A stretch of 64,000 nucleotides of DNA from Pseudomonadota bacterium (GTDB lineage: Bacteria > Pseudomonadota > Alphaproteobacteria > Puniceispirillales > Puniceispirillaceae): positions 62,001 to 126,000 of the forward strand of contig JAQCEA010000002.1 in assembly GCA_027620495.1 (NCBI GenBank), written 5' to 3'. The position numbers were made by a program, and so were the translations under genes. The notes below the pieces were generated by a model that did no database searches, had not been told where the DNA came from, and saw nothing but the letters and a program-made list of their open reading frames with translations. Shown here one piece after another: positions 16,716-37,348 of this stretch (its first letter is position 1; each line of letters starts with the position of its first letter).

Positions 16716-16782
16716 ATTAATGCTCATTAAATAATAAACGGTGCCAACGCCGTATAAGCTAAGATCAAAACGGGAGATTCAG

Positions 16783-18075: not shown

Positions 18076-18085
18076 ATTGAATTGC

Positions 18086-18117
18086 CTTGCTAGCGGCCAT
18101 ATTTGGTCGCTAGCAAG
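18086..18117 (+). other. Hairpin between SBP and permease genes (10-bp perfect stem CTTGCTAGCG/CGCTAGCAAG)
   Basis: CTTGCTAGCG gccatatttggt CGCTAGCAAG, 11 bp after the SBP stop, no following U-tract. Confidence 0.8.
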
Positions 18118-18163
18118 AACCCCCTTTGGTATTTCATTTTTCATTTAATTTGAGGCAGTTGCC

Positions 18164-19060: not shown

Positions 19061-19061
19061 C

Positions 19062-19997: not shown

Positions 19998-20752
19998 CTA
20001 GTGCGGCTCCGATTTTACAAGTCCGGGACCTGCTGAAAACCTTTGGCGCGGTGGTGGCGGCAAAAGACATCAATATTGATGTGTCAAAAGGTGAAATTGT
20101 CGGCATTATTGGTGCGAATGGCGCTGGCAAAACCTGTTTTGTGAATATGGTCACCGGGTATTTAGCCCCGACAGCGGGCAGCATCGTATTTGAAGGCACC
20201 GAGCTGGTTGGCAAGGGGCCGCGCGAGGTCACACATGCAGGCATTTCGCGCTCGTTTCAGGTATCACAGGTTTTCCACTCAATGACAGTTGAAGAAAATC
20301 TGCGTATCGCGCTGGCGATTGCGGAAAACCGTGGGGTGAATGCGTTGCGTCTGATGGAAAGTGACGCGCTAGAGGCAAAATGTTCAGATGTGTTGCGGCG
20401 CTATAAGCTGGAACCGCACAAACATATGACGGTCAGTGTTCTCTCGCAAGGTATCCGCAAATTGCTCGACATTGCCATGGCGGTGGTGAGTGAGCCACGA
20501 ATCCTGTTACTCGACGAACCCACAAGCGGCATCAGTGTCGAAGAAAAATTTGATTTTATGGATGTGGTGATGGGGGCGCTGAAAGAAGACAACGTCACCG
20601 TTCTGTTTGTTGAACATGATATGGAAATTGTCGAACGCTATGTCAGTCGGGTGTTGGCTTTCTATCAAGGTGAAATCATTGCAGATATGGCGCCTGACAA
20701 AGCTCTTGCCGATAATAAAGTGCGAGAATTTGTGATTGGCAAACGGCATTAA
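19994..20752 (+). CDS. livG: ABC transporter ATP-binding protein LivG
   Basis: Walker A 'GANGAGKT', 'SVLSQGIRKLLDIAMAV', Walker B 'ILLLDEPTSGI', 'VEHDMEIV'. Confidence 0.93.
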   Translation: MTSAAPILQVRDLLKTFGAVVAAKDINIDVSKGEIVGIIGANGAGKTCFVNMVTGYLAPTAGSIVFEGTELVGKGPREVTHAGISRSFQVSQVFHSMTVEENLRIALAIAENRGVNALRLMESDALEAKCSDVLRRYKLEPHKHMTVSVLSQGIRKLLDIAMAVVSEPRILLLDEPTSGISVEEKFDFMDVVMGALKEDNVTVLFVEHDMEIVERYVSRVLAFYQGEIIADMAPDKALADNKVREFVIGKRH

Positions 20753-20778
20753 AATTCAGAGATAGGACAGTAAATACT

Positions 20779-21423
20779 ATGTTGATTGTTGATGCGCTAG
20801 ATGTCGATATAAATGGCACCCCCATTCTGCGTGATATTGGGCTGGAAATTAAAACTGGCGAGATTATTGGCCTGATTGGTCGCAACGGTGCTGGCAAAAC
20901 AACCTTTTTGCGCTCGGTGATGGGGTTGTTGCCAATCAATAGTGGCAAGATTGATTTTGATGATCACGCGTTGCACAGCCTGCCGGGGCATCGCCGGGCA
21001 CATTTGCGCATCGGCTATATGCCAGAAGACCGGCGGTTGGTGCCGGAAATGACAGCTGAAGAAAATATTTTGCTGCCAGTCTGGTCGACCAATATTGACG
21101 GGTATGAAGACCGTTTGAACTGGATTTATAAAATTATCCCTGAATGTGAAAAATTCCGCACCATGGCGGCCAATTCGCTATCTGGTGGCCAGCAAAAGCT
21201 GGTGGCATTAGGGCGGGCTTTGATGGTGGGGCATAAATTATTGTTGCTTGACGAGCCAACCGAGGGCATTGCACCGGTGTTGGCACAGCGTATGGGTGAA
21301 ATTCTGGCATCTCTCAAAAAAGAAGGGGTGTCGATCATCATCGCTGAATCAAATGACGCGCATGTCGCAAATGTGATTGACCGCACCTATGTGATCGAGC
21401 GCGGATCGATCGTCAGCAACTAA
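20779..21423 (+). CDS. livF: ABC transporter ATP-binding protein LivF
   Basis: Walker A 'GRNGAGKTT', 'LSGGQQKLVALGRALMVGHKLLLLDEPTEGIAP'. Confidence 0.93.
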   Translation: MLIVDALDVDINGTPILRDIGLEIKTGEIIGLIGRNGAGKTTFLRSVMGLLPINSGKIDFDDHALHSLPGHRRAHLRIGYMPEDRRLVPEMTAEENILLPVWSTNIDGYEDRLNWIYKIIPECEKFRTMAANSLSGGQQKLVALGRALMVGHKLLLLDEPTEGIAPVLAQRMGEILASLKKEGVSIIIAESNDAHVANVIDRTYVIERGSIVSN

Positions 21424-21440
21424 ACAAAAAACAGGTCTGA

Positions 21441-22394
21441 TTGATGACGGCACCGGTGAAATTTGTTGCAAAGGGTGTTATTCCGGCAACCCTTATTGCG
21501 TTTGATCAGGATTTTGCGGTCGATCAGAAAAACTTGCTGAAGCATCTTCGCGATGTTGCCGCAACAGATGGGTTGAGCGCCATTACCGTCAATGGCCATG
21601 CCTCGGAAATCCACGCATGTAGCGTTGCTGAACAGCAAGAGCTTTTGGCCTTATCACTGGCTGAAGTCGGTGACAGGTTGCCTTTGGTAAATGGTGTATA
21701 TGCAGATGGTAGCCATGCGGCTGTTGAAATTGCGCGCATGGCAGCTGCCGAAGGGGCCAGCGCCTTGCTTGTCTTCCCGCCAAATAGCATGAGCATGGGG
21801 GGGCAACACCGCCCAGAGATGGCGGTGCGTCATTTTCAAATGATTGCCGAGGCAACTGATCTGCCGCTGATTTTGTTTCAATATCCACAGGCCACTGGGC
21901 TTGGTTATCCTTTTGCAACGATGGAAATAATTTTCGATGCGGTACCGTCAATCGTTGCGATTAAGGATTGGTGTAACGACCCGATGTTGCACGAAAAACA
22001 TATCCGTAATTTTCAATCGCGGCCGCGTCCGGTGAATGTGTTGACAACGCATTCATCTTGGTTGATGGCGTCGTTGTCGATGGGGCCAGCCGGATTGCTG
22101 TCTGGGGCCGGAAGCGTGATTGCAGATTTGCAGGTGGCGTTATTCAACGCCATAAAGGCAAATGATTTGCAGACGGCGCGGCAGGTCAATGACCAAATTT
22201 ATCCGCTTGCACAGGCGTTTTACCGGGCACCATTTCTAGATATGCATAACCGGATGAAAGTCTGTCTGGAATTGTTGGGGCGGATTGATCGTGCGATTGT
22301 AAGGCCGCCATTAATGCCGTTGTCATCTGCTGAAATAGACGAATTGAAAACCGCGCTTGTGGCGTCTGGGCTGATGACTGGGTCTGGGCGCTAG
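21441..22394 (+). CDS. Dihydrodipicolinate synthase (DapA) family protein
   Basis: 'GVIPATLIAFDQDFAVD', 'GLSAITVNGHASEIHACSVAEQQELL', 'LPLILFQYP', 'VAIKDW' Schiff-base lysine. Confidence 0.87.
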   Translation: MMTAPVKFVAKGVIPATLIAFDQDFAVDQKNLLKHLRDVAATDGLSAITVNGHASEIHACSVAEQQELLALSLAEVGDRLPLVNGVYADGSHAAVEIARMAAAEGASALLVFPPNSMSMGGQHRPEMAVRHFQMIAEATDLPLILFQYPQATGLGYPFATMEIIFDAVPSIVAIKDWCNDPMLHEKHIRNFQSRPRPVNVLTTHSSWLMASLSMGPAGLLSGAGSVIADLQVALFNAIKANDLQTARQVNDQIYPLAQAFYRAPFLDMHNRMKVCLELLGRIDRAIVRPPLMPLSSAEIDELKTALVASGLMTGSGR

Positions 22395-22415
22395 ATTATT
22401 ATTAGGGGGGAAAAT

Positions 22416-22739
22416 ATGGCTCTATACGAATTGCGCACCTATCAGGTGTATGTTGGCAAAATGAAAGACGCGGTCGCAGCCTATCAGGATTATGGCTGGC
22501 CAGCGATTAAAAATGGCGGGTTTGATAACAAGCTTGTTGGCTATTTCACTTCAGATACTGGTGGCTTGCATCAGATTGTCCATTTGTGGAAATTTGATGA
22601 TTATAATGACCGGCGCCAGCATTGGGACACCATGTTTCAGGATACGGCATTCATGGAATTTGCTGGCAAAATCAGACCATTATTGATGACCCAGAAAAAC
22701 CAGTTGTTGCATGCCTCGCCGTGGGGACCGCACCCATAG
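22416..22739 (+). CDS. NIPSNAP family protein
   Basis: 'MALYELRTYQVYVGKM', 'LVGYFTSDTGGLHQIVHLWKFDDYNDRRQHW'. Confidence 0.9.
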   Translation: MALYELRTYQVYVGKMKDAVAAYQDYGWPAIKNGGFDNKLVGYFTSDTGGLHQIVHLWKFDDYNDRRQHWDTMFQDTAFMEFAGKIRPLLMTQKNQLLHASPWGPHP

Positions 22740-22797
22740 AAAGCTGGTGCCATTGCGCTGGGCTGTCTGATCTTTCAAATCATCAGGGGTAAAGGCT

Positions 22798-23259
22798 ATG
22801 GTGAACATCAAATATATCATCTGGGCGTTGATAGCCGGGGCATTTATCCCGCTCATTGGCATTTTGAACGGGCGAGTGGGCCGGGCATTGGGCGAGCCGT
22901 TTTATGCAACGGTGATGCTGTTTGGTGTGGCTATTATATTGGCGCTGGTGGTTTCGGTTGTTTTTGGCAAAGACGCCCCTTCGTTCCAAAACCTGCAAAC
23001 CCTGCGGCCGATGGATTACACGGCTGGCTTTATCGTTGCTTTTTATGTGATCAGCGCAACCGTGCTGGCTGGCAAAATTGGTGTGGCCAATTTCATTGTT
23101 ATGGCGGTGTCAGGCCAGATCATGTTTTCGCTGATGATTGACCATTTTGGCCTGTTCGGCGCACCGGTAAAACCAATTAATATGACCCAGCTTGTTGGGG
23201 CTGTTTTGCTGTTAATCGGGCTGGCAACAACGCAGCTTGCTAGCAGTAAATTAGATTAA
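22798..23259 (+). CDS. DMT family transporter, YdcZ-like
   Basis: About 150-aa, 5-TM, 'GAFIPLIGILNGRVGRALGEPFYATVMLFGV', 'LVGAVLLLIGL'. Confidence 0.82.
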   Translation: MVNIKYIIWALIAGAFIPLIGILNGRVGRALGEPFYATVMLFGVAIILALVVSVVFGKDAPSFQNLQTLRPMDYTAGFIVAFYVISATVLAGKIGVANFIVMAVSGQIMFSLMIDHFGLFGAPVKPINMTQLVGAVLLLIGLATTQLASSKLD

Positions 23260-23843
23260 CGCAGGCCGTCTTTACCTTCGGCTTCATCATGTGTCAGCCC
23301 GCCAACGCGAGGTAACGGACGCCCGGAATCAGCAACCGCAACAGCCACTAAAATTTCATTTGCCCGCGGCGCGTCATTCACCCGCACTTCCATGCCATCA
23401 AAATGTGATCTGACATAAGCGGCGTCTTTATGCCCGAGCGGGACGTCAAGTGGCTGGCCCATACCGCCGCGTTTCTTGTTTGACGGCACCAGAGCCGCGC
23501 CTTTTTCAACTGCCGCACGCAAAGGTTTGCCAAGCCGTGGATGCAAAATGGCCGCGGCATGTTCCAATTCTCCATTTTCTCCAACCAATGCGGCCTTGCC
23601 ATAGCTTTGTGCGTCAGCGGGTGAGATGCCAAGCGCGGCAACGCACGCCTCTCCCAATTTTGCGCCTAGCTCTTCGCCAATCACCATGAGCGCCTCTAAA
23701 TTCTCTACATAACGCCCAGCAAAAGGGTTTTCGATAACTGCAACCGCCGCCGCACGGCGTGTGGCTGGATGAATGGGCTGTTCAGCTTCGCTGTGTGTTT
23801 CCTCAACAATGGTAACAATTTTGCGAATCTTGGCGGTTGTCAT
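23256..23843 (-). CDS. Amino acid synthesis family protein (DUF1185/PF06684)
   Basis: 'TRRAAAVAVIENPFAGRYVENLEALMVIGEELG', 'YGKAALVGENGELEHAAAILHPRLGKPLRAAVEKGAALVPSNKKRG'. Confidence 0.88.
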   Translation of the reverse strand: MTTAKIRKIVTIVEETHSEAEQPIHPATRRAAAVAVIENPFAGRYVENLEALMVIGEELGAKLGEACVAALGISPADAQSYGKAALVGENGELEHAAAILHPRLGKPLRAAVEKGAALVPSNKKRGGMGQPLDVPLGHKDAAYVRSHFDGMEVRVNDAPRANEILVAVAVADSGRPLPRVGGLTHDEAEGKDGLR

Positions 23844-23908
23844 GCTGAGGCCTCGTAACCAAATGGGTTTGACGTGTGCGAAAAATTAACGCTAAATTCA
23901 AGAATAAA

Positions 23909-23933
23909 ATTTGTTCGCTGTCAAACAATAATC
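23909..23933. promoter_or_regulatory. Operator candidate 1: ATTTGTTCGCTGTCAAACAATAATC
   Basis: TTGTT-N7-AACAA-like inverted repeat sharing 'AAACAATAATC' with the site at 25887; lies in the DUF1185/marR divergent region. Confidence 0.6.
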
Positions 23934-24097
23934 AGCCTGATTATCTGCCGGAACAGTGCGTCATTTAGAAGGTAAATTCATCATGTTAGTTACCGCTGTT
24001 GTAATGGAAAATATCTATCGCGGCGCAGTAAATATCCAGCAGATGCGGCTTGATTGCATCGCCAACAAGGTTCGGAATTAAAGGAACATTATTATCC

Positions 24098-24508
24098 ATG
24101 ACAGATGACTACAGACTTGATGATCAGGTAGGCTATAAATTGCGACTTGCTAGCCAGCGCCATTTGGAAATCTTTTCGCAACATCTCTCCGACATTACGC
24201 CCACCCAATTTTCAATTTTGGCGCGTCTTTATGAGGTTGGTGAGACATCACAAAATCAGCTTGGCAGGCTGGTGGCTATGGATGCGGCCACCACCAAAGG
24301 GGTAATCGCGCGGCTGCTGGAAAAAAATCTTGTCGAGGCGCGTGCCGATCCAAATGATGCACGGCGTCTGCAAATTTCATTGACCGAAACTGGCCGTGAA
24401 CTGACCATTGATGCGATTGAAAAGGCGCGCAAAATTACCGAAGATACGGTGGCGAATTTAAACGGCCATGATGTGAAGAGGCTGCTAGAATTGCTGGATA
24501 AGATCTAG
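24098..24508 (+). CDS. MarR family transcriptional regulator
   Basis: 'LDDQVGYKLRLASQRHLEIF...LTPTQFSILARLYEVGETSQNQLGRLVAMDAATTKGVIARLLEKNLVEARADPNDARRLQISLTETG' winged HTH. Confidence 0.92.
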   Translation: MTDDYRLDDQVGYKLRLASQRHLEIFSQHLSDITPTQFSILARLYEVGETSQNQLGRLVAMDAATTKGVIARLLEKNLVEARADPNDARRLQISLTETGRELTIDAIEKARKITEDTVANLNGHDVKRLLELLDKI

Positions 24509-24535
24509 GTTTTAAATCGTCTTGTGCGATAAATA

Positions 24536-24555
24536 AATGTTTGCATACTAATGAA
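24536..24555. promoter_or_regulatory. Operator candidate 2: AATGTTTGCATACTAATGAA
   Basis: 15/20 identity to the reverse complement of the site at 25887; upstream of the enamidase-like gene. Confidence 0.5.
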
Positions 24556-24617
24556 ATGCGCAGGGTATTTTTATTGTGGCAATCGCCCGGTGCGCCATCG
24601 GTGAAAAGGGGCAAATC

Positions 24618-25787
24618 ATGTCTACACAAAAGCTTGTGATCAAGAATATAGGCCAGATTTTGTCTGGCAAGCTGGAAGAACCACTGATTGATGGTGATTG
24701 TGTGATTGCCATTGATGGACATATCACCGCCATTGGCCGCTATCGTGAGTTAGATACCGATCAGGCAACGCAGATTGTTGACGCGCATGGCGTGACGCTG
24801 GCCCCGGGGTTGATTGACAGCCACGTACATCCGGTTATTGGCGATTATACGCCGCGCCAACAACAATTGAACTGGATTGATTCATGCTTGCATGGCGGCG
24901 TGACAACAATGATTTCAGCTGGTGAGGTGCACGCGCCCGGCCGTCCAAAGGATATTGTTGGATTGAAAGCGATGGCGATTGCCTCGCAACGTTGGTACGA
25001 AAATTTCCGGCCATCTGGCGTCAAAATGCTGGCTGGCGCACCGGTGATTGAAGAGGGCATGGTCGAGTCTGATTTTAAAGAGCTTGCTGATGCCGGGGTT
25101 AAATTGCTTGGCGAAGTTGGTTTAGGGTCGGTAAAGGCCGGTGAAACAGCCGCCCAAATGGTAAAATGGGCGCGCAAATATGGCATTCAGTCCACCATCC
25201 ATACAGGTGGCCCATCGATCCCGGGGTCAGGCTTGATCGACAAAGATGTCGTGCTAGAGGCAGATGCAGATATCATTGGCCATATCAATGGCGGGCATAC
25301 CGCGTTGCCTGATGACCAGATCACCTGTCTGTGCGAAAGCTGTACGCGCGGCATTGAAATTGTGCATAATGGCAATGAAAGGGCCGGTTTGCTTGCTATG
25401 CGCACGGCTTTTGAAATTGGTCAGGCAGAGCGTATTATTTTAGGCACTGATGCGCCAGCCGGATCAGGTGTGCAACCTCTTGGCATCTTGCGGATGATTG
25501 CCATGCTATCGAGCCTTGGTGATATTCCGCCAGAAATCGCCTTTTGTTTTGCCACCGGTAATACCGCCAGAATGCGTGAGCTTGACAGCGGCATCATTGA
25601 AATTGGTAAGTCGGCAGATTTTATCTTGATCGACAGTGCCCAGCATGCGCCCGGCAAGACCATGCTTGAAAGCATTCATCAAGGCAATCTTCCGGGTGTT
25701 GGCATGACGATTATTGACGGCATTGTCCGCACCCAGCGCAGCCGGAATACGCCGCCTGCTGAACGTTTACCAGAAGTGGTGCTGTAG
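24618..25787 (+). CDS. Amidohydrolase, enamidase-like (homologue of Eubacterium barkeri nicotinate-pathway enamidase)
   Basis: 'VTLAPGLIDSHVHPVIGDYTPRQQQLNWIDSCLHGGVTTMISAGEVHAPGRPKDIVGLKAMAIA', 'GEVGLGSVK', 'IHTGGPSIPGS', 'GHINGGHTALPD', 'RSRNTPPAERLPEVVL' resemble enamidase as I remember it. Confidence 0.8.
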   Translation: MSTQKLVIKNIGQILSGKLEEPLIDGDCVIAIDGHITAIGRYRELDTDQATQIVDAHGVTLAPGLIDSHVHPVIGDYTPRQQQLNWIDSCLHGGVTTMISAGEVHAPGRPKDIVGLKAMAIASQRWYENFRPSGVKMLAGAPVIEEGMVESDFKELADAGVKLLGEVGLGSVKAGETAAQMVKWARKYGIQSTIHTGGPSIPGSGLIDKDVVLEADADIIGHINGGHTALPDDQITCLCESCTRGIEIVHNGNERAGLLAMRTAFEIGQAERIILGTDAPAGSGVQPLGILRMIAMLSSLGDIPPEIAFCFATGNTARMRELDSGIIEIGKSADFILIDSAQHAPGKTMLESIHQGNLPGVGMTIIDGIVRTQRSRNTPPAERLPEVVL

Positions 25788-25796
25788 ACCGGGTGC

Positions 25797-25856
25797 TGGC
25801 ATGACTAGCTGTTGGCATGACTAGCTGTTGGCATGACTGGCTGTTAGAATGACCGG
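25797..25856. repeat. Tandem repeat, 16-bp unit (TGGCATGACTAGCTGT), 3 full copies plus a degenerate fourth
   Basis: Units start at 25797, 25813, 25829 and 25845. Confidence 0.93.
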
Positions 25857-25886
25857 GCAAGAGAAAGCCGATTTACAAAAATGTTA

Positions 25887-25906
25887 ATTGTTAGTATACA
25901 AACAAT
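25887..25906. promoter_or_regulatory. Operator candidate 3: ATTGTTAGTATACAAACAAT (18/20 palindromic)
   Basis: Near-perfect palindrome 37 bp upstream of the AOR start. Confidence 0.7.
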
Positions 25907-25942
25907 AATCGATTATGTGGGTTTGGCTAAAAGGGGCTGGCT

Positions 25943-27667
25943 ATGCGTAAATTCATAGAAATAGATTTGCATCACCAAAAAAAAACCGAGCGCCAGCTTA
26001 CTGGCCGTGAACTGGCCGAGGCTGGGCGGTATCTGATCGCGCGTATGCTGGTCGAACGTAATATCGCAGGCATTGATCCGTTGGCACCGGAAAATCCATT
26101 GATCTTTTCAGTCGGGCCATTTGCCGGGACGAATTTTTCCAATGCGAACCGTTTGTCTGTTGGTTGCAAAAGCCCGCTGACCGGCGGTGTGAAAGAGGCC
26201 AATAGCGGTGGCACATTTGGATTTGCCATGGGGCAATTACAGATCGCTGGGCTGACCTTTACCGGTGCCAGTGACAATTGGGTGGTGATCCGCATCACCA
26301 AAGATGGTGAAATTTCATTTGATGATGCCGCCCCCTATTTGGGGCTTGGCAATTTTGATTGTGCCAAAAAATTACATGCTGTTTATGGCGAAAAAACTTC
26401 GTTGGCTCTATGCGGCCCGGTTGGTGAATATTTGGGGTTAATGGCTGGTGTTGCCTTTTCTGATACCGACAACCGGCCGTCACGATTGGCGGCGCGCGGC
26501 GGTGTTGGTGCGGTGATGGGTGCCAAAAAAATAAAGGCGGTGGTGATTGATAAAGACCGTATGCCGCCGGTTCATGATCGCAAAAAGGTCATGGGCGCGA
26601 TTAAGGATTATGGCAAAAAGTTAGGTGAGTCCGTTGCCGTGCAAAGCCTGAAAACAACGGGTACAGCCATGGTGGCTGATCTGACCAATCATCTCGGTGC
26701 CTTGCCGGTGCGTAATTTTTCTGCCGGTCAATTAACTGGCACGAATGATGGCCCGCTGAAAATGGGTGGGGATTTTATCCGTGAGTTGAATAGTGGGCGT
26801 GGCGGCGAAACATCGCATGCATGTATGCCGGGCTGCCTGATTAAATGCAGCAATGTCTATGTTGACGATACTGGGCGCGAATTGGTCTCGCCGCTTGAAT
26901 ATGAAACCATTGGCTTGCTTGGGACAAATTGCGGGTTAACCGAGCCTGATGATGTGGCGCGCCTGAATGAAACAGCGAATGATCTTGGCGTTGATAGCAT
27001 AGAGCTTGGCGCCACCATCGCGGTTTTGATGGAAGCGGGTGAGGGGGCGTTTGGTGATTTGCCCTTTATGCAGGCCTGTCTTGAAGAAATCCGTTCCGGC
27101 AGTGAAAAAGGCCGACTTTATGCCTCTGGTACGGCGCGGGTTGGTGCGGCGCTGCAGGTGGCACGGGTGCCGGTCATCAAGAAACAGGCGATTAGTGCGT
27201 ATGACCCGCGGGTGATCGAGGTCACTGGTATTTCAATGATGCTGACAGCACAAGGCGCCGACCACACGGTTGGTAACGCGCCATCTTTTAAATGCGATGA
27301 CAAATCCATCGCCGAACTTGTGGCTGAAAGCTTGCGTATGCAGATCAATAGCGCGGTCGCCGACTCATTTGGTTTATGTGTGTTTGGCCGGTCAGTGACT
27401 GACGATAATCTGAAACTGATTGCTGATGCGATTAATGATGCGTTTGATGCAGGCGTTGACCCAGAATTTATCCGGCATATCGCGCTTGAAACCTTGCGGC
27501 TAGAGGCTGTTTTTAACAAAGCCGCCGGTTTCGATGAAGATGATGACGAATTGCCAGCATTTTTCACCGATGAACCTCTGCCGCCAACAAATAAGACCAA
27601 TCGATTGTTCAGCCGGGAAGTGAACCAGCAAATGCAGGTGCTTTTGGCGAATGCGGCGGTGCAGTGA
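25943..27667 (+). CDS. Aldehyde:ferredoxin oxidoreductase (AOR) family tungstopterin protein
   Basis: 'ENPLIFSVGPFAGTNFSNANRLSVGCKSPLTGGVKEANSGGTFG', 'AARGGVGAVMGAKKIKAVVI', Cys motif 'HACMPGCLIKCSN', 'DSFGLCVFG'. Confidence 0.92.
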   Translation: MRKFIEIDLHHQKKTERQLTGRELAEAGRYLIARMLVERNIAGIDPLAPENPLIFSVGPFAGTNFSNANRLSVGCKSPLTGGVKEANSGGTFGFAMGQLQIAGLTFTGASDNWVVIRITKDGEISFDDAAPYLGLGNFDCAKKLHAVYGEKTSLALCGPVGEYLGLMAGVAFSDTDNRPSRLAARGGVGAVMGAKKIKAVVIDKDRMPPVHDRKKVMGAIKDYGKKLGESVAVQSLKTTGTAMVADLTNHLGALPVRNFSAGQLTGTNDGPLKMGGDFIRELNSGRGGETSHACMPGCLIKCSNVYVDDTGRELVSPLEYETIGLLGTNCGLTEPDDVARLNETANDLGVDSIELGATIAVLMEAGEGAFGDLPFMQACLEEIRSGSEKGRLYASGTARVGAALQVARVPVIKKQAISAYDPRVIEVTGISMMLTAQGADHTVGNAPSFKCDDKSIAELVAESLRMQINSAVADSFGLCVFGRSVTDDNLKLIADAINDAFDAGVDPEFIRHIALETLRLEAVFNKAAGFDEDDDELPAFFTDEPLPPTNKTNRLFSREVNQQMQVLLANAAVQ

Positions 27668-27723
27668 TGCGCGCCGTACATGCGTTCTGAAGGGCTTGAC
27701 GGGCATGAAAAATTGCAGTCTCC

Positions 27724-27747
27724 TTTATTTGTGTACGAACAAATAAA
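27724..27747. promoter_or_regulatory. Operator candidate 4: TTTATTTGT-GTACGA-ACAAATAAA
   Basis: Perfect 9-bp arms with 6-bp spacer; 14/19 identity to candidate 3; upstream of the molybdenum hydroxylase operon. Confidence 0.62.
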
Positions 27748-27800
27748 TGCGGCCGCAATCAAGGCCTTGATGTGTTTTATGAGCCAATGTGAGAGGGTTT

Positions 27801-28679
27801 ATGCAAGGTGTGCTAGCCGCAGATCATCATGATGATTATGTAAGAGCGCCAGACCTAGACGCCGCCATAGCCACGTTGGCCGCGGGGCCGTGCCGCATTT
27901 TGGCTGGTGGTACAGATGTGTTCCCCTCATTACAGGATCGCCCGCTTGTCGGCCGGGTGCTGGATATTTCTGGTATCGCTGATTTGCGCCAGATTACACA
28001 AAGCGATGACCATTGGTCGATTGGCGCGGCGGTCAACTGGCGTGATGTCATTCGGGCGGCGCTTCCCGCGTCCTTTGATGGACTAAAAGCGGCGGCCCGC
28101 GAGGTCGGGTCATGGCAAATTCAAAACCGGGCAACTCTGGTTGGCAACATTTGTAATGCGTCACCGGCGGCAGATGGAGTGCCGGCCTTGCTGACGATGG
28201 ATGCCGCGGTACAATTGCAATCTTGCCGGGGTAGCCGAGTGATGCCATTGGCATCATTTATCACTGGCAATCGTAAAACCAAACGTGCCGAAGACGAGAT
28301 GGTCACCGCCATTCTGGTGCCAAAGACGGCCACCGCCGGGCAGGGATATTTCTATAAATTGGGTGCCCGCCGCTATTTGGTGATTTCGATTGGTATGGTG
28401 GCGATGCGGCTATTATGCGGCAAGCAACGCACCATTTCTGAAATAGCGATCGCTGTAGGTGCCTGTTCGGAAGTGGCCACCCGGCTGCATGATCTGGAAC
28501 AGCATTTATGCGGCCAGCCATTGGCGGGCGCGGCTGATATGGTGTCAGCGTCACATTTTGCGGGCCTATCCCCGATTGATGATGTGCGCGCACCGGCAAG
28601 CTATCGTATGGATGCGGTTGAAGAGTCGGTGCGGCGCCTTTTGGTACAGGCTGGTTCTGACATAGGACATGAAAAATAA
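27801..28679 (+). CDS. Molybdenum hydroxylase FAD-binding subunit (XdhB/CoxM type)
   Basis: 'YVRAPDLDAAIATLAAGPCRILAGGTDVFPSL', 'QIQNRATLVGNICNASPAADGVPALL', 'GQGYFYKLGARRYLVISI'. Confidence 0.92.
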   Translation: MQGVLAADHHDDYVRAPDLDAAIATLAAGPCRILAGGTDVFPSLQDRPLVGRVLDISGIADLRQITQSDDHWSIGAAVNWRDVIRAALPASFDGLKAAAREVGSWQIQNRATLVGNICNASPAADGVPALLTMDAAVQLQSCRGSRVMPLASFITGNRKTKRAEDEMVTAILVPKTATAGQGYFYKLGARRYLVISIGMVAMRLLCGKQRTISEIAIAVGACSEVATRLHDLEQHLCGQPLAGAADMVSASHFAGLSPIDDVRAPASYRMDAVEESVRRLLVQAGSDIGHEK

Positions 28680-31441
28680 TGGCGGGCATCAGCTTTTTAT
28701 TAAATGGAAAATCTGTGACCAGTATGGCGCGCCCGACAACCCGGGTCAGCGATGTATTGCGTGGCGATTTTGGCCTGAAAGGTACCAAGGTTGGCTGTAA
28801 CGCTGGCGATTGTGGGGCCTGCACCATTTTGCTTGATGATGAACCGGTTTGTAGCTGTCTGGTCGCGCTGGGACAGATTGACGGGCAATCAGTCACCAGT
28901 GTTGAAGGGTTGCATCAGTCGGGTGTCATTGAAAGATTGCAGCAAAGTTTTCTGGCGCATGGGGCGGCACAATGCGGGATTTGTACACCCGGCATGCTGG
29001 TATCTGCGGCACATTTGTTAGCGTCAACCCCCCAACCAAACCGCGCCGAGGTCGAAGATGCGCTTGGTGGTGTGTTATGCCGGTGTACCGGCTATAGTAA
29101 AATTATTGACGCGGTGATGCAGGCGCATTCGCACCTGCCGCAACCAATGAAACCGGGCGCTGGCAACAATGTCGGCAGTTCGATTCAGCATCTAGACGGC
29201 GTCGCAAAGGTGCAGGCGGGGCTTGCCTATGGCGCAGATAAGGTGCCTGCAAATGCGCTGTTATTGCGTGTTATTCGTAGCCCGCACCACTATGCTGATT
29301 TTGAAATTGGCGATAAATCGGCGTTTTTAGCGGCCCACCCCGGTATTGTTGCCGTGTTTGATGCCACAGATGTGCCGGGCCGGAATTGTTTTGGTGTCAT
29401 TCCTCTATTTGCTGACCAGCCGGTGTTTGCCGAAACCACAGCGCTATACCGCGGTGATGCAGTTGCCGCGATTGTTGGTGAAGCAGACGTGATTAATAGG
29501 TTTGACGAGGCGCAGTTTCCGATTAACTGGCAGCCGCATGAAACTATATTGACGCCGCAAGCCGCGCTTCATCCAGATGCCCGGCAGATGCATAAAGGCC
29601 GTGACGGCAATATTTTGGTCAAAGGCTTTGTGGCCCGCGGCGATGCTGATGCGGCTCTGGCACGGGCGGCGCACCGGGTCACCATACATTCAAGCACACC
29701 CTTTATCGAACATGCCTATATTGAACCTGAGGCTGGTTACGCGGTGCGCGAGGGTGACAGGCTGATGATTTATGGCTGTACGCAGGCCGCTCAAATGGAC
29801 CGTGATAGCCTTGCCGAAATTATGGCGATGGATGTTGATGCCATCCGGGTGATGCCAAGCGCGGTTGGCGGTGGCTTTGGATCAAAGCTTGATATCTCCT
29901 TTCAGCCCTTTGTGGCATTGGCGGCGTGGCGGTTAAACCGGCCCGTGGCGATTTGTTACACACGCGGTGAATCGATGCGATCCTCGACCAAACGTCACCC
30001 GTCGGATATCCGGCTTGAGGTGGGATGTGATGCCGATGGACGGATCAGCGGGTTTGTTTTTGATGGGGTGTTTAACACTGGTGCCTATGCCAGTTGGGGG
30101 CCAACGGTGGCGAACCGGGTACCGGTACATGCCAGCGGGCCTTATGTGACCCCAGATTACCGGGCATCAAGCGTTGCGGTTCACACCAATGCACCGCCGG
30201 CTGGTGCCTTTCGTGGATTTGGTGTGCCGCAATCAGCCGTTGCGCAGGAATGTGCCTATGATCTGTTGGCAGAAAAGCTGGATATGGACCGGTTGGCATT
30301 CCGGCGGATGAATGCGTTGCAAAATAATATGCCGACAGTCACCGGCCAGAGCTTTGCGACCGGGGTTGGCATTGCTGAGTGTTTGGCGGCTTTGCAAGCA
30401 GAATGGAACGCGGCAAATGCGCGGGCCGACAAATTTAACAAAGATGCCAAAAACAGCGGGTCAATGTTACGCAAAGGCATTGGCATTGCCAGTTGCTGGT
30501 ATGGTTGCGGCAATACATCTCTGCCAAACCCGTCAACCATGCGGATGGGGGTGACGGCTGATGGGGCCTGTGTTCTGCATCAAGGCGCGATGGATATTGG
30601 CCAAGGGGCAAATACGGTTATTTCGCAAATTGCCGCAGATGCGCTGGGGGTGCCGGTACATAGCCTATCGCTGATTGATGGCGATACTGATCTCACACCA
30701 GATTGCGGCAAGACGTCGGCGTCTCGACAGACATTTGTGTCGGGAAAAGCGGCATTGCTGGCTGGCCGCGCTTTGCGTGAGGTCATTTTGCGCCACGGTA
30801 ATGTGTCTGATGATGCCAGCCTGATGATTGATGCGGCGGAAATACGACTTGTTGACAATGTGACTGGCGGTACCGCCAATATTGATCTGTCATCTTTGCC
30901 AGTGAATGCGCATGGCTATGTGTTTATGGCAGAAGAAACGTATGACCCGCCAACCACGCCGCTTGATGAAAATGGTCAAGGCGCGCCTTATGCCGTTTAT
31001 GGCTATGGAGCGCAAATGATCGAATTGACCGTGGATATCGGGCTTGGTCAGGTTCGGTTGGAAAAAATGACGACAGCGCATGATGTGGGCCGCGCGATTA
31101 ACCCGTTGCTTGTCGAGGGCCAGATCGAAGGTGGGGCGGCACAAGGTATTGGATTGGCATTGATGGAAGATTATTTGCCCGGCCGCACCGAAAATTTACA
31201 TGATTATCTGATCCCGACCATTGGCGATGTCCCGCGCTTTGAACATATCATTGTCGAAGTGACAGATGCCGAGGGGCCTTATGGGGCCAAAGGGCTGGGT
31301 GAACATGTGTTGATTCCAACCGCGCCAGCGATTGTGAACGCTATTCGTCAGGCAACCGGTGTGTTGATCACGCATCTTCCGGCCACCGCTGATAAAATTC
31401 GTGCGGCATTACACCAGCAGGCACAAGAGTTAAAGTCATGA
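28679..31441 (+). CDS. Molybdenum hydroxylase, fused [2Fe-2S] and molybdopterin-binding subunit (920 aa)
   Basis: 'CNAGDCGACTILLDDEPVCSCL', 'CGICTPGM...CRCTGY', then Mo domain 'AFRGFGVPQS' and catalytic Glu motif 'GAKGLGEHVLIP'. Confidence 0.93.
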   Translation: MAGISFLLNGKSVTSMARPTTRVSDVLRGDFGLKGTKVGCNAGDCGACTILLDDEPVCSCLVALGQIDGQSVTSVEGLHQSGVIERLQQSFLAHGAAQCGICTPGMLVSAAHLLASTPQPNRAEVEDALGGVLCRCTGYSKIIDAVMQAHSHLPQPMKPGAGNNVGSSIQHLDGVAKVQAGLAYGADKVPANALLLRVIRSPHHYADFEIGDKSAFLAAHPGIVAVFDATDVPGRNCFGVIPLFADQPVFAETTALYRGDAVAAIVGEADVINRFDEAQFPINWQPHETILTPQAALHPDARQMHKGRDGNILVKGFVARGDADAALARAAHRVTIHSSTPFIEHAYIEPEAGYAVREGDRLMIYGCTQAAQMDRDSLAEIMAMDVDAIRVMPSAVGGGFGSKLDISFQPFVALAAWRLNRPVAICYTRGESMRSSTKRHPSDIRLEVGCDADGRISGFVFDGVFNTGAYASWGPTVANRVPVHASGPYVTPDYRASSVAVHTNAPPAGAFRGFGVPQSAVAQECAYDLLAEKLDMDRLAFRRMNALQNNMPTVTGQSFATGVGIAECLAALQAEWNAANARADKFNKDAKNSGSMLRKGIGIASCWYGCGNTSLPNPSTMRMGVTADGACVLHQGAMDIGQGANTVISQIAADALGVPVHSLSLIDGDTDLTPDCGKTSASRQTFVSGKAALLAGRALREVILRHGNVSDDASLMIDAAEIRLVDNVTGGTANIDLSSLPVNAHGYVFMAEETYDPPTTPLDENGQGAPYAVYGYGAQMIELTVDIGLGQVRLEKMTTAHDVGRAINPLLVEGQIEGGAAQGIGLALMEDYLPGRTENLHDYLIPTIGDVPRFEHIIVEVTDAEGPYGAKGLGEHVLIPTAPAIVNAIRQATGVLITHLPATADKIRAALHQQAQELKS

Positions 31442-32937
31442 CTGAACGCAAAAGCCGTGATGAACGGGTGGATGAAAAAATCCGTTGTGATGCCTGTCCG
31501 GTGATGTGTTACATCGCCAATGGTAAATCGGGCGCTTGTGACCGGTATGCCAATGACGCCGGACAATTGGTCCGATTGGACCCGCTGGTGATCATGCAGC
31601 GCCGGGTCGATGAGGGCGGCAATCTTGTGCCGTTTTTAGATACTGACAAACCATGGGACGGCAGCATTGTTACGCCAAATGACCATTTTGTGACGGCGAT
31701 TGGTGCTGGTACGACTTATCCAGATTACAAACCGGCCCCGTTTATCGTTGCCAGCCAGCAAGGCGGCGTTGACATGGTGACCGTTGTGACCGAGGGCATT
31801 TTTAGCTATTGCGGTGCCAAGGTAAAAATTGACACCGACCGCCATATCGGGCCGGAACGCAGTCTGGTACGCGTTGATGGCGAGGCGGTTGGGCATGTCA
31901 CAACAGGTGAATATGGATCGCAAATGCTGTCGCTGGGCGGGGTGAATCATTTGACCGGCGGCAGCAAAAAGGAAGGCCGGGTGACCTGTGCGACATTGCT
32001 GAGCCTGTGCAATGGTGAAGCCGTTGACATGCAGGTCGATGAGGGGTCGCAATTGGTAATTCAGGCGGGTCAACCGCCGATCATCAATGGGGTCACTGAA
32101 GACCGTATGCGGGTTGGGTGTGGATCAGCTACCATTGGTATGTTTGCCGCGCAATGGCAGGGGTTGGTCGATGAAGTGGTGATTGTTGATGATCATATCA
32201 CCGGAGTAATGTCGGAACATCAAGCTGGTAAAGTGCTAGGCTGGAAGCCGTCAGGAATCAAAATTCTGGGCCGCCGGTCAACCCCCGGGCGCTATTTTCA
32301 GGTGGCAGAACCAGGCACCGGATGGGGCGGTACCAAACTAACCGATCCGCTAGAGATCCTTGGCCCGTTTGATAGTAAAGTGGCACAACCCGGCCAATCA
32401 TTGTTGATGGTGTCAACGACGGGTGAACAATTTGCCTATTACGAACTGGATGCGGCGCTTAACCCGATTGCTATGGAGATGCCGGACAGGTTGCGTCCCT
32501 CAATTGCAAGGATTGAAGAAAATTGCGAACCGGCGTTGACATCGGTGGCGTTTATGGGGGGCGCTGGCGGGTCGTTGCGCGCCGGGGTGACGGAAAATCC
32601 GGTACAGTTAACCCGCGCGGTAAAACAGGCGCTGGTTCGGGTCAGCTGTGGCGGTGCCCCGGTCTATATCTGGCCGGGTGGCGGTATCACCATAATGGCT
32701 GACGTGATGCAAATACCGGAAAATGCATTTGGTTATGTGCCAACCCCGGCGTTGGTGGCACCGATTGAATTTACCATGCGGCAAAGTGACTATCAGGCAC
32801 TTGGCGGTCATATGGGCCATGTGATGTCAATTGAAGAGGCGCTAGCAGGCAAAGTCGGGCGGCAGAATGATCATCGTTTGCAGGGCATGAAAGCTGTTCA
32901 GCAACGCGCCGATATTCCGTGGCCGGGCAAAGGGTAA
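31438..32937 (+). CDS. 6-hydroxynicotinate reductase-like Fe-S protein
   Basis: N-terminal CX2CX3CX9C ('CDACPVMCYIANGKSGAC'), 'FIVASQQGGVDMVTVVTEGIFSYCGAKVKIDTDRHIGPE', 'LGGVNHLTGGSKKEGRVTCATLLSLCNGE'; recalled match to the family annotated as 6-hydroxynicotinate reductase. Confidence 0.78.
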   Translation: MTERKSRDERVDEKIRCDACPVMCYIANGKSGACDRYANDAGQLVRLDPLVIMQRRVDEGGNLVPFLDTDKPWDGSIVTPNDHFVTAIGAGTTYPDYKPAPFIVASQQGGVDMVTVVTEGIFSYCGAKVKIDTDRHIGPERSLVRVDGEAVGHVTTGEYGSQMLSLGGVNHLTGGSKKEGRVTCATLLSLCNGEAVDMQVDEGSQLVIQAGQPPIINGVTEDRMRVGCGSATIGMFAAQWQGLVDEVVIVDDHITGVMSEHQAGKVLGWKPSGIKILGRRSTPGRYFQVAEPGTGWGGTKLTDPLEILGPFDSKVAQPGQSLLMVSTTGEQFAYYELDAALNPIAMEMPDRLRPSIARIEENCEPALTSVAFMGGAGGSLRAGVTENPVQLTRAVKQALVRVSCGGAPVYIWPGGGITIMADVMQIPENAFGYVPTPALVAPIEFTMRQSDYQALGGHMGHVMSIEEALAGKVGRQNDHRLQGMKAVQQRADIPWPGKG

Positions 32938-33986
32938 TGGCCGCGGCGCCGCAAGCAATCATATATTCGGCCAGCCAAACGCGGCATCCTGCCGGGGCGC
33001 AGGCACAATGGCTTGATGATGGACGGCTGCATTTACATCATGGGCCAATTGACCTTGTGATTGGTGCAGATGGAACAAAGGCGGCTGTCGCTAAGGCGTG
33101 TTCTGCGGCTATTGATAGGTTTTCTACTGTCCTTGAAGAGCTGGTGAGCGAACTTGTGCTATTGCGAAAGCCGGCTCATCAAATAGCGCGCCGTCCAACA
33201 GGCTGTGTTGCCGCGCGGATGTGGGCGGCGACCATGCCGCATGCCGACATCTATAGGGATGCAAATTACGTGACGGCTATGGCGGCAGTGGCCGGGGCGG
33301 TGGCTGATGAAATTTTGTCAGTAATGCGTGATGCTGCTGATCTTGATCGTATCTATGTCAATAATGGCGGCGATATCGCGCTTTATTTGCACCCGGCGGC
33401 TGTCGCGGTACCGCATTATACGGTTGGCATCTGCGCTGACCCGGATGCGGTATTCTGGTCACATGTTGATCTTGGTGCTTCGGCGGGTGACCGGGCGGTA
33501 AGACCAGTTTCCAACGCCTTTGCCGGCACGATCACAATCACCGCGGCAGATCATGTTGGCGGTATCGCAACAAGTGGCTGGAAAGGCCGGAGCCATTCGC
33601 TGGGCGTGGCTGATCTGGTGACGGTGCTAGCACCAACAGCGGCGGCGGCTGATGTGGCGGCCACGTTGATTGCAAATGCGGTATGCCCGGATGATGAAAC
33701 AGAGTCAGACTGGCCCGGTGTGCACCGCCAACCCGCCAACGCATTAGCGCCCGATAGTGATTTGGGATCACGTCTTGTCACGGTTCATGTTGATCGGTTG
33801 CCAGATCATGTCATCACAAAAGCATTGCGGCGCGGTGCCAGCGTGGCCGAAGATATGCGTCAGTCTGGACACATATCAGCCGCTTATGGTGTGGTACAGG
33901 GTCAGGGGTTTTTGTGCGGCGCGTCAAAGCATGAGGCGGCGGCACCCGGCGCTGTTTTGTTAGATGAGACAAATGTTAAGGGGTGA
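32937..33986 (+). CDS. UPF0280 family protein (ApbE-related)
   Basis: 'YVTAMAAVAGAVADEIL', 'RIYVNNGGDIALYL', 'IATSGWKGRSHSLGVADLVTVLA'; start overlaps the previous stop (TAATG). Confidence 0.85.
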   Translation: MAAAPQAIIYSASQTRHPAGAQAQWLDDGRLHLHHGPIDLVIGADGTKAAVAKACSAAIDRFSTVLEELVSELVLLRKPAHQIARRPTGCVAARMWAATMPHADIYRDANYVTAMAAVAGAVADEILSVMRDAADLDRIYVNNGGDIALYLHPAAVAVPHYTVGICADPDAVFWSHVDLGASAGDRAVRPVSNAFAGTITITAADHVGGIATSGWKGRSHSLGVADLVTVLAPTAAAADVAATLIANAVCPDDETESDWPGVHRQPANALAPDSDLGSRLVTVHVDRLPDHVITKALRRGASVAEDMRQSGHISAAYGVVQGQGFLCGASKHEAAAPGAVLLDETNVKG

Positions 33987-34756
33987 TGGCAATGACGCGG
34001 CTGGTGATTTTTGACAAAGATGGGGTGATTCTTGACCTGCAGGCAACATGGTTGCCAGCCGCACGGGCGGTGGCGGCACATACGGTGACATTGATCCCTG
34101 CTGTTGAGGGTGTCATGCCAGCGATCACCGCGGCAGATTTATTGCATGCCATTGGTGTTGATGATCTGCGCGGTCATATTGATCCACAAGGCATTTTTGC
34201 GACTGGTTCATTCGCCGAAATACGCGCCAAATGGCAAGCCATGCTGCCGCCGCAGATGATCGCGCTTGAACATGACATGGCATATCGTGATGCGGTGCAA
34301 ACCATCGTTCACGAACAAACACGCCAGACAACCAAAGCCAAAGGTGATGTGGTCACCCCACTTCATGCGTTGCATAAAGACGGCTATCAGCTGGCGATGG
34401 TCACCAATGATAATGAACGAAGCGCCAGACAAAGTTTACATGATCTTGGTATTGCAGATTTATTCTGTGCAGTTATCGGGGCAGATAGCGGTTTTGGGTC
34501 AAAGCCAGATCCCGATGGATTGTTGCATTGTTGCGATATCGCCGGGGTGATGCCAGATGCAAGCATTATGGTAGGTGATACCATTGCCGATTATGGGGCG
34601 GCGATGGCGGCTGGGTGCAAGTCGTTTGTTTGCATTGCTGATGCGTTTGAATTTCGGCCGCATCACGATATTCAGCCAGAATTTGTGATTGCCGATTTGA
34701 TGGGGTTGCCCGGATTATTGGGAGTGGAATCATCACCGTCTAAGACCGCACGGTGA
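33986..34756 (+). CDS. HAD family hydrolase (phosphoglycolate phosphatase-like; alternative GTG start at 33983)
   Basis: 'LVIFDKDGVILDLQATW', 'LAMVTNDNERSARQSL', 'GSKPDPDGLLHCC', 'IMVGDTIADYGAAMAAGC'. Confidence 0.88.
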   Translation: MAMTRLVIFDKDGVILDLQATWLPAARAVAAHTVTLIPAVEGVMPAITAADLLHAIGVDDLRGHIDPQGIFATGSFAEIRAKWQAMLPPQMIALEHDMAYRDAVQTIVHEQTRQTTKAKGDVVTPLHALHKDGYQLAMVTNDNERSARQSLHDLGIADLFCAVIGADSGFGSKPDPDGLLHCCDIAGVMPDASIMVGDTIADYGAAMAAGCKSFVCIADAFEFRPHHDIQPEFVIADLMGLPGLLGVESSPSKTAR

Positions 34757-34950: not shown

Positions 34951-36198
34951 ATGACGGGACAAATTGTAATTATTGGCGCGAGTCATGCCGGCATTTCATG
35001 CGCTGAACAATTGCGCACACTGGGATTTTCTGGTGGCATTACATTGGTCGACAGGCAGTCAGGTGCGCCGATAGAACGCCCACCCTTGTCAAAATCCTAT
35101 CTTGGTAGCGTGCCAGAAGATGATGATAAATTCTTGCTGCGCCGCCCGGAATGGTATGAAAAATTTCAAGTCACAATGATTGACGGTATCGCCGTTGATC
35201 GCATTGATCCGGTGCCGCACCAGATTTGGTTGGCTGACGGCCAGTCATTAAATTACGATAAACTTATCCTTGCCACTGGCGCGGTGCCGCGCACATTGCC
35301 GCAAGCGGATGGTCTTGGCAATGTGCATGTGTTGCGAAGCCCGGATGATGCCGCCGCCTTGCGCCGGGCCATGCAAACAGCCAATACAGCCGTGGTTATT
35401 GGTGGTGGCTATATCGGACTTGAAGCTGCGGCAAGCTTTCGCAAGGCTGGATTAAACGTGCATGTGGTTGAAGCCGCCGACAGATTGCTAGCACGTGTGG
35501 CAAGCCCAGAGATGTCAGCTTTTTTTCAAGATCTTCACCAACGCCACGGGGTGATGATACATACCGGCATGACCGGCACGAAAATCCATCAAAAAGACGG
35601 TTTGTTTACGGGCATAACCTTGGATACCGGCCAGCAGATTTCAGCCGAATTGCTGGTGGTTGGTATAGGTGTCGCACCTGACCGGGTGCTGGCAGATGCC
35701 ATCGGGGCGGCAACTGGCAATGGCATTCTTGTTGACCGCCATATGCGAACCACGATTGATGATGTCTATGCGATTGGTGATGTGGCGCTGGTAGACGGGG
35801 CCGCATTACGCATTGAATCGGTGCATAATGCCCAGGATACAGCGGCGCGCGCTGCCGCTGATATCACCAAAACGCCGTTGCCGGACATATCTGTGCCTTG
35901 GTTCTGGTCAGAACAATATGATATGAGACTGCAATCAGCAGGGATTGTTCCGGCTGGCAAAGATGGTACGCATTATGCGGTGCGTCCGTCAAAGCGCGAA
36001 GGCGGCATGTCGGTCTGGAGCTATGATGACCGCCGGTTGGTTGCGGTCGAGGCCGTGTATGACCCGGCGGCTTATATGCTTGGCAAAAAATGCCTTGAAA
36101 ATCATTTATCACCGCCGCGCTCAGATATCACTGACCCTGCCTTTGATTTAAAAACATTTGCAACCGCGACACCCGGTATGCAGCAAGACGGAGCCTAA
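34951..36198 (+). CDS. FAD-dependent oxidoreductase, ferredoxin reductase-like (BphA4/rhodocoxin reductase family)
   Basis: 'IVIIGASHAGISCAEQLRTLGFSGGITLVD', 'PLSKSYL', 'VIGGGYIGLEAAASFRKAGLNVHVVEAADRLLARV', 'VYAIGDVA', 'WFWSEQYDMRLQSAGI'. Confidence 0.9.
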   Translation: MTGQIVIIGASHAGISCAEQLRTLGFSGGITLVDRQSGAPIERPPLSKSYLGSVPEDDDKFLLRRPEWYEKFQVTMIDGIAVDRIDPVPHQIWLADGQSLNYDKLILATGAVPRTLPQADGLGNVHVLRSPDDAAALRRAMQTANTAVVIGGGYIGLEAAASFRKAGLNVHVVEAADRLLARVASPEMSAFFQDLHQRHGVMIHTGMTGTKIHQKDGLFTGITLDTGQQISAELLVVGIGVAPDRVLADAIGAATGNGILVDRHMRTTIDDVYAIGDVALVDGAALRIESVHNAQDTAARAAADITKTPLPDISVPWFWSEQYDMRLQSAGIVPAGKDGTHYAVRPSKREGGMSVWSYDDRRLVAVEAVYDPAAYMLGKKCLENHLSPPRSDITDPAFDLKTFATATPGMQQDGA

Positions 36199-36203
36199 CC
36201 ACC

Positions 36204-37253
36204 ATGATGTATGCTGGCGTTGCAAAAACAAATCGGCCGGTGCGTATGGATATGCGCAGTGACACTGTGACGCAACCAACCGCTGCGATGCGGCGCGCCA
36301 TGGCAGAGGCGGAAGTTGGTGATGATGTTTATGGGGATGATCCAACGGTGAACGCGCTGCAAGATAAAGCGGCAAAATTGCTTGGCAAGGAAGCCGGGTT
36401 GTTTGTGGCCACTGGCACCCAATCAAATTTATGCGCCACACTGGCCCATTGCCAACGTGGTGACGAAATTCTGGTTGGCGATAGCTATCATATTTTTCGG
36501 GATGAAGCTGGCGGCGCGGCGGTGCTTGGCGGGGTTATGATGGCACCGGTATTGACCGGCGCATCTGGTGCAATGCGGCCAGATGATATTGCCGCGACAG
36601 TCAAACCGGATGATGCCCATTGCGCGATATCACGTTTGTTATGTCTTGAAAATACGGTAGCTGGACATGTTCAGTCTGCCAAAACCATAAATGAAATGGC
36701 GGCGGTTGGACGCGCGCATGGGCTGGCTGTACATCTTGACGGGGCGCGGCTGATGAATGCGGTTGTCAAGCTTGGCATTTCTGCCGCCGAACTTGTTGCT
36801 GGTGTTGATACGGTATCTTTATGTTTGTCCAAGGGGCTGGGAACGCCAGCCGGGTCTGTCTTGGTTGGGCCAGCAGATTTTATTCGGCGGGCGCACCGTA
36901 TTCGCAAATTGGTTGGTGGCGGCATGCGCCAAATTGGTGTTTTGGCCGCCGCTGGCATCCATGCGCTTGACCATCATATTGACCGTCTTGCAGATGATCA
37001 TACACATGCCTTGCGGCTTGCTGAAGGCTTGTCAAAGGTCAAAGCCATTCAGGTAAACCCAGAAGCGGTAGAAACCAATATGGTGTTTATTGGATTGCCA
37101 GATGGAGCGGCTGATGGGTTGCGTGCACATCTTGCCGAACGAGGGATTTTGCTTGGTGGGGGCAAAAAACAGATCAGGCTGGTCACCCATCTGGACATCA
37201 CCGGTGACGATATAGATTTGCTGACCGAAGAAATTTCCCACTATTTTGCTTAA
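36204..37253 (+). CDS. Low-specificity threonine aldolase-like PLP protein (beta-eliminating lyase fold)
   Basis: 'MDMRSDTVTQPTAAMRRAMAEAEVGDDVYGDDPTVNALQDKAAKLLGKEAGLFVATGTQSN', 'VHLDGARLMNA', 'SLCLSKGLGTPAGSVLVG'. Confidence 0.92.
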   Translation: MMYAGVAKTNRPVRMDMRSDTVTQPTAAMRRAMAEAEVGDDVYGDDPTVNALQDKAAKLLGKEAGLFVATGTQSNLCATLAHCQRGDEILVGDSYHIFRDEAGGAAVLGGVMMAPVLTGASGAMRPDDIAATVKPDDAHCAISRLLCLENTVAGHVQSAKTINEMAAVGRAHGLAVHLDGARLMNAVVKLGISAAELVAGVDTVSLCLSKGLGTPAGSVLVGPADFIRRAHRIRKLVGGGMRQIGVLAAAGIHALDHHIDRLADDHTHALRLAEGLSKVKAIQVNPEAVETNMVFIGLPDGAADGLRAHLAERGILLGGGKKQIRLVTHLDITGDDIDLLTEEISHYFA

Positions 37254-37348
37254 AATCACCAGCTAATATGGCGATTTGGGAATATTAAACTGATTTTCTG
37301 ATGCCATTATGCGGCAGGAAATATGATCAGTAAAAGGTATGGTTTGCA

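Follow-up and report, generated by a model that had tools for sequence, protein, structure and literature searches.

The window analysed here, a 64,000-nucleotide stretch of DNA from an alphaproteobacterium of the family Puniceispirillaceae with a genome of 2.4 Mb, contains an island that we read as a regulon for aerobic reductive nicotinate degradation. In this regulon, an aldehyde:ferredoxin oxidoreductase (AOR) would feed electrons back to 6-hydroxynicotinate reductase (Hnr), carbon would leave as glutarate, and a protein of the family UPF0280 (DUF375) would act as an Hnr maturase. Resting on gene content, conservation and neighbourhood, this explanation as a whole is moderately probable. 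The route itself is known; the AOR branch and the partnership of UPF0280 with Hnr are what is added. If the reading is correct, reductive nicotinate breakdown is a trait of an entire genus of SAR116-type marine bacteria, and a ferredoxin loop driven by the substrate would account for the way in which an aerobe affords low-potential ring reduction. UPF0280, an uncharacterized family, would gain a directly testable function from its flavin-transferase-like fold and a genomic distribution identical to that of Hnr.

Organization and conservation of the island

The observation recorded in the initial annotation was confirmed: each of the genes that it named is present at its position, all on the plus strand, and the start/stop overlaps that it gave (28679, 31438, 32937 and 33983) hold as well. 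Its gene list had overlooked the minus-strand DUF1185 gene. The features are as follows.

23256..23843, minus strand: DUF1185/AA_synth (PF06684) protein (Pfam, 241 bits; close to solved structure 2QTP)
24095..24508, plus strand: MarR-family regulator (Pfam MarR)
24540..24555, minus strand: operator-like site upstream of enamidase, TTCATTAGTATGCAAA
24618..25787, plus strand: enamidase (45% identical to 2VUN at E 2e-107, with the metal-ligand motifs retained)
25887..25906, plus strand: genus-conserved operator-like palindrome ahead of AOR, ATTGTTAGTATACAAACAAT
25943..27667, plus strand: AOR (domains AFOR_N and AFOR_C; 1AOR, E 5e-50)
27728..27743, minus strand: operator-like site upstream of the hydroxylase-Hnr operon, TTTGTTCGTACACAAA
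27801..28679, plus strand: Mo hydroxylase FAD subunit, with either 27789 or 27801 as its start (FAD_binding_5, matches to XDH and 3HRD_C)
28679..31441, plus strand: fused [2Fe-2S] and molybdopterin subunit of nicotinate dehydrogenase type (3HRD the best solved match for both Mo halves)
31438..32937, plus strand: Hnr, of the 6-hydroxynicotinate reductase family (61-73% identity to plasmid genes with that annotation)
32937..33986, plus strand: UPF0280 (DUF375) with ApbE-like fold (genome distribution that of Hnr; fold match to 2O34, then ApbE/FmnB/Ftp)
33983..34756, plus strand: HAD-family hydrolase, a genus-specific operon member (PF13419; conserved in the genus)
34951..36198, plus strand: ferredoxin-reductase-like flavoprotein, HcaD-like (missing in congener L038)

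The block is syntenic in genomes of the same genus wherever contigs cover the region, which is far from chance, in the order DUF1185, MarR, enamidase, AOR, FAD subunit, Mo subunit, Hnr, UPF0280, HAD, reductase, aldolase and DmdA-like gene. Conservation extends past the HAD gene to 38458 and takes in the ferredoxin-reductase-like, threonine-aldolase-like and DmdA-like genes. The congener L052 has the same island with an Hnr 94% identical, and L038 has the block without its ferredoxin-reductase-like gene. Hnr is present in 16/16 genomes of the genus and in 25/61 of the family. Conservation of the gene neighbourhood, named in the initial annotation as a check on its reading, was found in the genus synteny, among the Hnr loci and across the genomes of the class.

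Ring reduction and the identity of the substrate

In the proposed route, the Mo hydroxylase would convert nicotinate to 6-hydroxynicotinate, Hnr with ferredoxin would reduce this compound to 1,4,5,6-tetrahydro-6-oxonicotinate (THON), and enamidase would open THON by hydrolysis, giving 2-formylglutarate and ammonia. In the nicotinate fermentation of Eubacterium barkeri, nicotinate dehydrogenase, Hnr and enamidase follow one another in that order, and the hydroxylase and enamidase of the island are clearly homologous to its enzymes, as Hnr would be, going by its annotation; on this fermentation Alhapel and colleagues are said to have reported in 2006. The island differs in its Mo subunit, which is fused rather than split, in its aerobic host, and in its extra AOR and UPF0280 genes; the later B12-dependent steps of the E. 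barkeri route are probably replaced in the window organism.

The interpretation given in the initial annotation was borne out in part. Its core, reduction of a nicotinate-like ring by a Mo hydroxylase, Hnr and enamidase, has good support, and the ring can be specified as that of nicotinate; two points of its framing, on the aerobic host and on the absent methyleneglutarate genes, do not stand. As to the host, a nicotinate cluster has already been described in aerobes, namely in Azorhizobium and in Bradyrhizobiaceae, its bearers including Bradyrhizobium and strain SG-6C (PMC3511419), so that the setting is not new. That cluster has Hnr, enamidase, an ABC transporter, MarR and UPF0280 and DUF1185 neighbours in common with the island. 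The Bradyrhizobium loci differ from it in carrying a NicB-type nicotinate dehydrogenase with a cytochrome c domain, together with a ferredoxin-NADP reductase, and no AOR in the cluster. Judged from these loci, the two unknowns of the published cluster (PMC3511419) would be UPF0280 and DUF1185.

The narrowing to nicotinate begins with the Mo subunit, which was trimmed to correspond to the E. barkeri chains before its two Mo-domain halves were compared. These score 218 and 215 bits against E. barkeri nicotinate dehydrogenase (3HRD), and 147 and 150 bits against the next-best solved protein, 4-hydroxybenzoyl-CoA reductase. The positions aligned with Gln208L, Phe353L, Tyr13M and Glu289M of 3HRD, which we take to be the active-site residues of that enzyme, are all kept. 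Among relatives, a NicB-type nicotinate dehydrogenase replaces the Mo hydroxylase in 30 of the 80 named Hnr loci, and a nicotinate phosphoribosyltransferase gene adjoins five Hnr clusters, four of NicB type (L086, L093, L117 and L120) and one of hydroxylase type (L068, where the gene is partial and at the locus edge); the two such transferases that were scanned both pass the curated cut-off. Because of the active-site match and these neighbours, nicotinate is the likely substrate, and we regard it, with the first three steps predicted from it, as very probable. Another N-heterocycle, of picolinate or N-methylpyridinium type for example, degraded by unchanged chemistry, is quite improbable. Such a substrate would suit the VanA-like Rieske oxygenase found in clusters of marine relatives, and what is degraded may not be the same for clusters of hydroxylase type and of NicB type; against it count the retained active-site residues, the NicB and phosphoribosyltransferase neighbours and the window genome itself, in which no close relative of the oxygenase was found.

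The VanA-like Rieske oxygenase lies within several marine Hnr clusters (e.g. L024:18529-19599 and L027:19058-20125) and is possibly an N-demethylase for trigonelline that feeds nicotinate into the route. Homarine was also considered as a substrate; nothing in the analysis points there.

The reductase was assigned to its family by annotation, from 61-73% identity to plasmid genes annotated as 6-hydroxynicotinate reductase. Seven of its cysteines were invariant in the first alignment. Searches of Pfam, NCBIfam and PDB sequences returned no match for Hnr, and its predicted model, which is weak (pLDDT 66), has no structural neighbour in the PDB. An in-frame TGA in the Hnr genes of two genomes proved to be a normal stop near the C-terminus, through which the alignment had been read.

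Ring opening and the exit of carbon

The amidohydrolase had been likened to E. barkeri enamidase, and the likeness holds: that enzyme (2VUN) is its best solved match (45% identity, E 2e-107), and the metal-ligand motifs (HxH, Glu, His, His and Asp) are all kept. Outside the genus, enamidase is present at 50 Hnr loci, the hydantoinase/oxoprolinase pair HyuAB at 18 and both at none. HyuAB loci include L024, L025, L064, L066, L069, L078, L080, L088, L092 and L115. Since no locus has both and enamidase is absent genome-wide from 7/8 of the HyuAB genomes tested, HyuAB probably replaces enamidase as a non-homologous ring opener.

We suggest that carbon leaves as glutarate via glutaryl-CoA. In Azorhizobium, the route exits via glutarate (PMC3511419); with such an exit, the lack of methyleneglutarate genes that the initial annotation had remarked on is expected. 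Glutaryl-CoA-dehydrogenase-like genes occur near Hnr in L072, L092 and L226, and in L057 another, preceded by the palindrome motif described below, heads a series of genes in which AOR and the hydroxylase come next. The L057 gene was recognized from the motifs YRSMMSVQSSLVM and YEGTHD, which we presume to be those of such dehydrogenases. The probable HyuAB swap and these genes beside the clusters of some relatives point to a glutarate exit; on the 231 kb contig that holds the window, glutaryl-CoA dehydrogenase was not found.

The AOR branch and the supply of electrons

The island AOR shares with Pyrococcus furiosus AOR (1AOR), to which it is closest, the layout of the AFOR_N and AFOR_C domains, the Fe-S cysteines, and the positions of the catalytic Glu and His; cluster cysteines and both catalytic positions are invariant across its clade, defined at ≥ 61% identity. 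It differs from 1AOR in its distant sequence, shorter length, aerobic proteobacterial host and tie to Hnr. The clade occurs in 15 of 386 class genomes, of which 14 also carry Hnr against a base rate of 68/386 (Fisher 1e-10), and outside the genus Hnr accompanies it in 12/13 genomes (3e-9), both statistics ignoring phylogeny. Within the genus, 15/16 genomes have the AOR. Most Hnr genomes are without it, those of sister genera included, in whose Hnr-positive members none was found; one further genome of the family, without Hnr and 7% contaminated, has an AOR piece 58% identical. The gene has enamidase, Hnr, DUF1185 or the hydroxylase as a neighbour in two metagenome-assembled genomes (MAGs), one from Rhizobiaceae (L051) and one from Granulosicoccaceae (L057), as well as in the culturable Terasakiella pusilla (L090) and in L144, L153 and L155; it is unlinked in ten other genomes.

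The inclusion of the AOR in the island by the initial annotation is thus upheld by repeated adjacency, by co-occurrence across genomes and by a common operator-like palindrome. This palindrome, TTTGTTMGTAYACAAA, lies upstream of enamidase, of AOR and of the hydroxylase-Hnr operon in the window. A relaxed pattern, WTNRTTMGTAYRCAAA, built in part from these three sites, has exactly three perfect matches genome-wide, which are the same three. Allowing one mismatch yields four sites genome-wide, against nine for a reversed control, so only exact matches are informative. The palindrome also precedes AOR in the genus and in L051, L090 and L144; it was not found upstream of the unlinked AOR genes. 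A MarR gene recurs near Hnr across loci, and MarR is likely the local regulator of the island, which is probably a regulon under its control.

The AOR is found in genomes with either ring opener, enamidase or HyuAB, which fits an enzyme that acts after ring opening. It may oxidise 2-formylglutarate, or glutarate semialdehyde after a decarboxylation, and that it acts on an aldehyde of the pathway seems to us rather likely from its genomic associations. More tentatively, with a probability that we place below even, the two low-potential electrons would pass from AOR to ferredoxin and on to Hnr. No paper joining an AOR to a nicotinate ring-reduction route was found in a literature search.

Of comparable, and likewise less than even, probability is an aerobic nicotinate pathway of the ordinary kind known from Azorhizobium. 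On this account, the AOR would be dispensable, clearing an aldehyde or dumping reductant elsewhere, and a ferredoxin reductase, for instance the product of the 34951 gene, would supply Hnr with electrons from NAD(P)H. The absence of AOR from most Hnr clusters agrees with this account, as does a ferredoxin-NADP reductase that clusters with Hnr in 32/106 loci outside the genus, mostly of NicB type. The window, too, has a reductase-like gene downstream, the flavoprotein at 34951..36198, a possible alternative electron feed; that gene, however, is missing from L038, a congener that retains the AOR, and against this account also stands the AOR clade, which tracks Hnr and has the palindrome in common with it. 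The ferredoxin-NADP reductase is present in 23/31 NicB-type and 8/67 hydroxylase-type clusters (p 2e-9, the clusters not being phylogenetically independent), a pattern that suits an Hnr supplied by ferredoxin. AOR and this reductase were considered as mutually exclusive donors, an idea that is suggestive but confounded, the reductase tracking the NicB type. Aldehyde dehydrogenase motifs were also scanned for around the clusters; nothing was returned, and this outcome was given no weight.

UPF0280 as a partner of Hnr

UPF0280, which the initial annotation left uninterpreted, is the tightest partner of Hnr. Both are found in an identical set of 68/386 class genomes, a coincidence for which independent genomes would give a chance of ~1e-77; the genomes are not independent, and the statistic ignores phylogeny. 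At 78/80 named loci, UPF0280 goes with Hnr.

Its fold relates UPF0280 to the flavin transferases ApbE, FmnB and Ftp. In a profile comparison with ApbE (probability 93%, E 3e-7, the alignment still containing a few stray rows), the motifs NNGGD, IATSG and ADxxAT are paired. The first PDB match of the AlphaFold model (pLDDT 86) is 2O34 (DVU1097), the next 39 are all ApbE, FmnB or Ftp, and the first other protein follows at E 1.4. The GGD, TSG and ADxxxT motifs that it has in common with these enzymes are conserved; in ADxxxT, an Asp-x3-Thr metal-site motif, Asp is kept in 38/38 sequences and Thr in 36/38. At the position aligned with the ApbE catalytic histidine (HIIDP motif), His stands in only 14/38; for this reason UPF0280 is not filed as an ApbE but treated as a family of its own. 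It has no match to PF02424, and no canonical ApbE was found in the window genome. We know of no transferase activity for UPF0280, and the name was not found in any paper searched.

The Hnr of E. barkeri is reported to hold a covalent flavin. We propose that UPF0280 serves the maturation of Hnr specifically, most likely by inserting or attaching its flavin; from its distribution, its modelled fold and the lack of an ordinary ApbE in the genome, the role of maturase is fairly likely, and covalent flavinylation as its means has slightly less than an even chance. Less likely, UPF0280 is a structural component of Hnr or catalyses a different step of the pathway. A distribution identical to that of Hnr fits a subunit equally well, and the variable histidine position also speaks for these roles; the ApbE-like fold with conserved GGD, TSG and ADxxxT motifs speaks for a maturase, and the constancy with which UPF0280 keeps with Hnr, though hydroxylase type and ring opener vary, argues against another pathway step. 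That a closed loop from aldehyde through AOR to Hnr operates in an aerobe and that UPF0280, as a new ApbE-like branch, attaches flavin to Hnr are jointly rather improbable.

Other genes of the neighbourhood

Just upstream of the island (16741-23259) lie a LIV-type ABC transporter, a DHDPS-family aldolase, a NIPSNAP protein and a small DMT-like membrane protein. Inspection of these genes revealed no operator-like motif, and the aldolase end of the stretch is syntenic in congeners. The transporter (16741-21423) was considered for nicotinate uptake; identity between its binding protein and those of other Hnr clusters is only ~26%. Downstream, at 36204-38458, threonine-aldolase-like and DmdA-like genes are kept with the island across the genus, the latter scoring 381 bits, below the cut-off of 410 for DMSP demethylase. 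At least one DUF1185 copy is near Hnr in 106/122 loci; these DUF1185/AA_synth proteins, for which the solved structures are 2QTP and 3BYQ, often stand two in tandem alongside Hnr and UPF0280 (e.g. L024:17347-18506).
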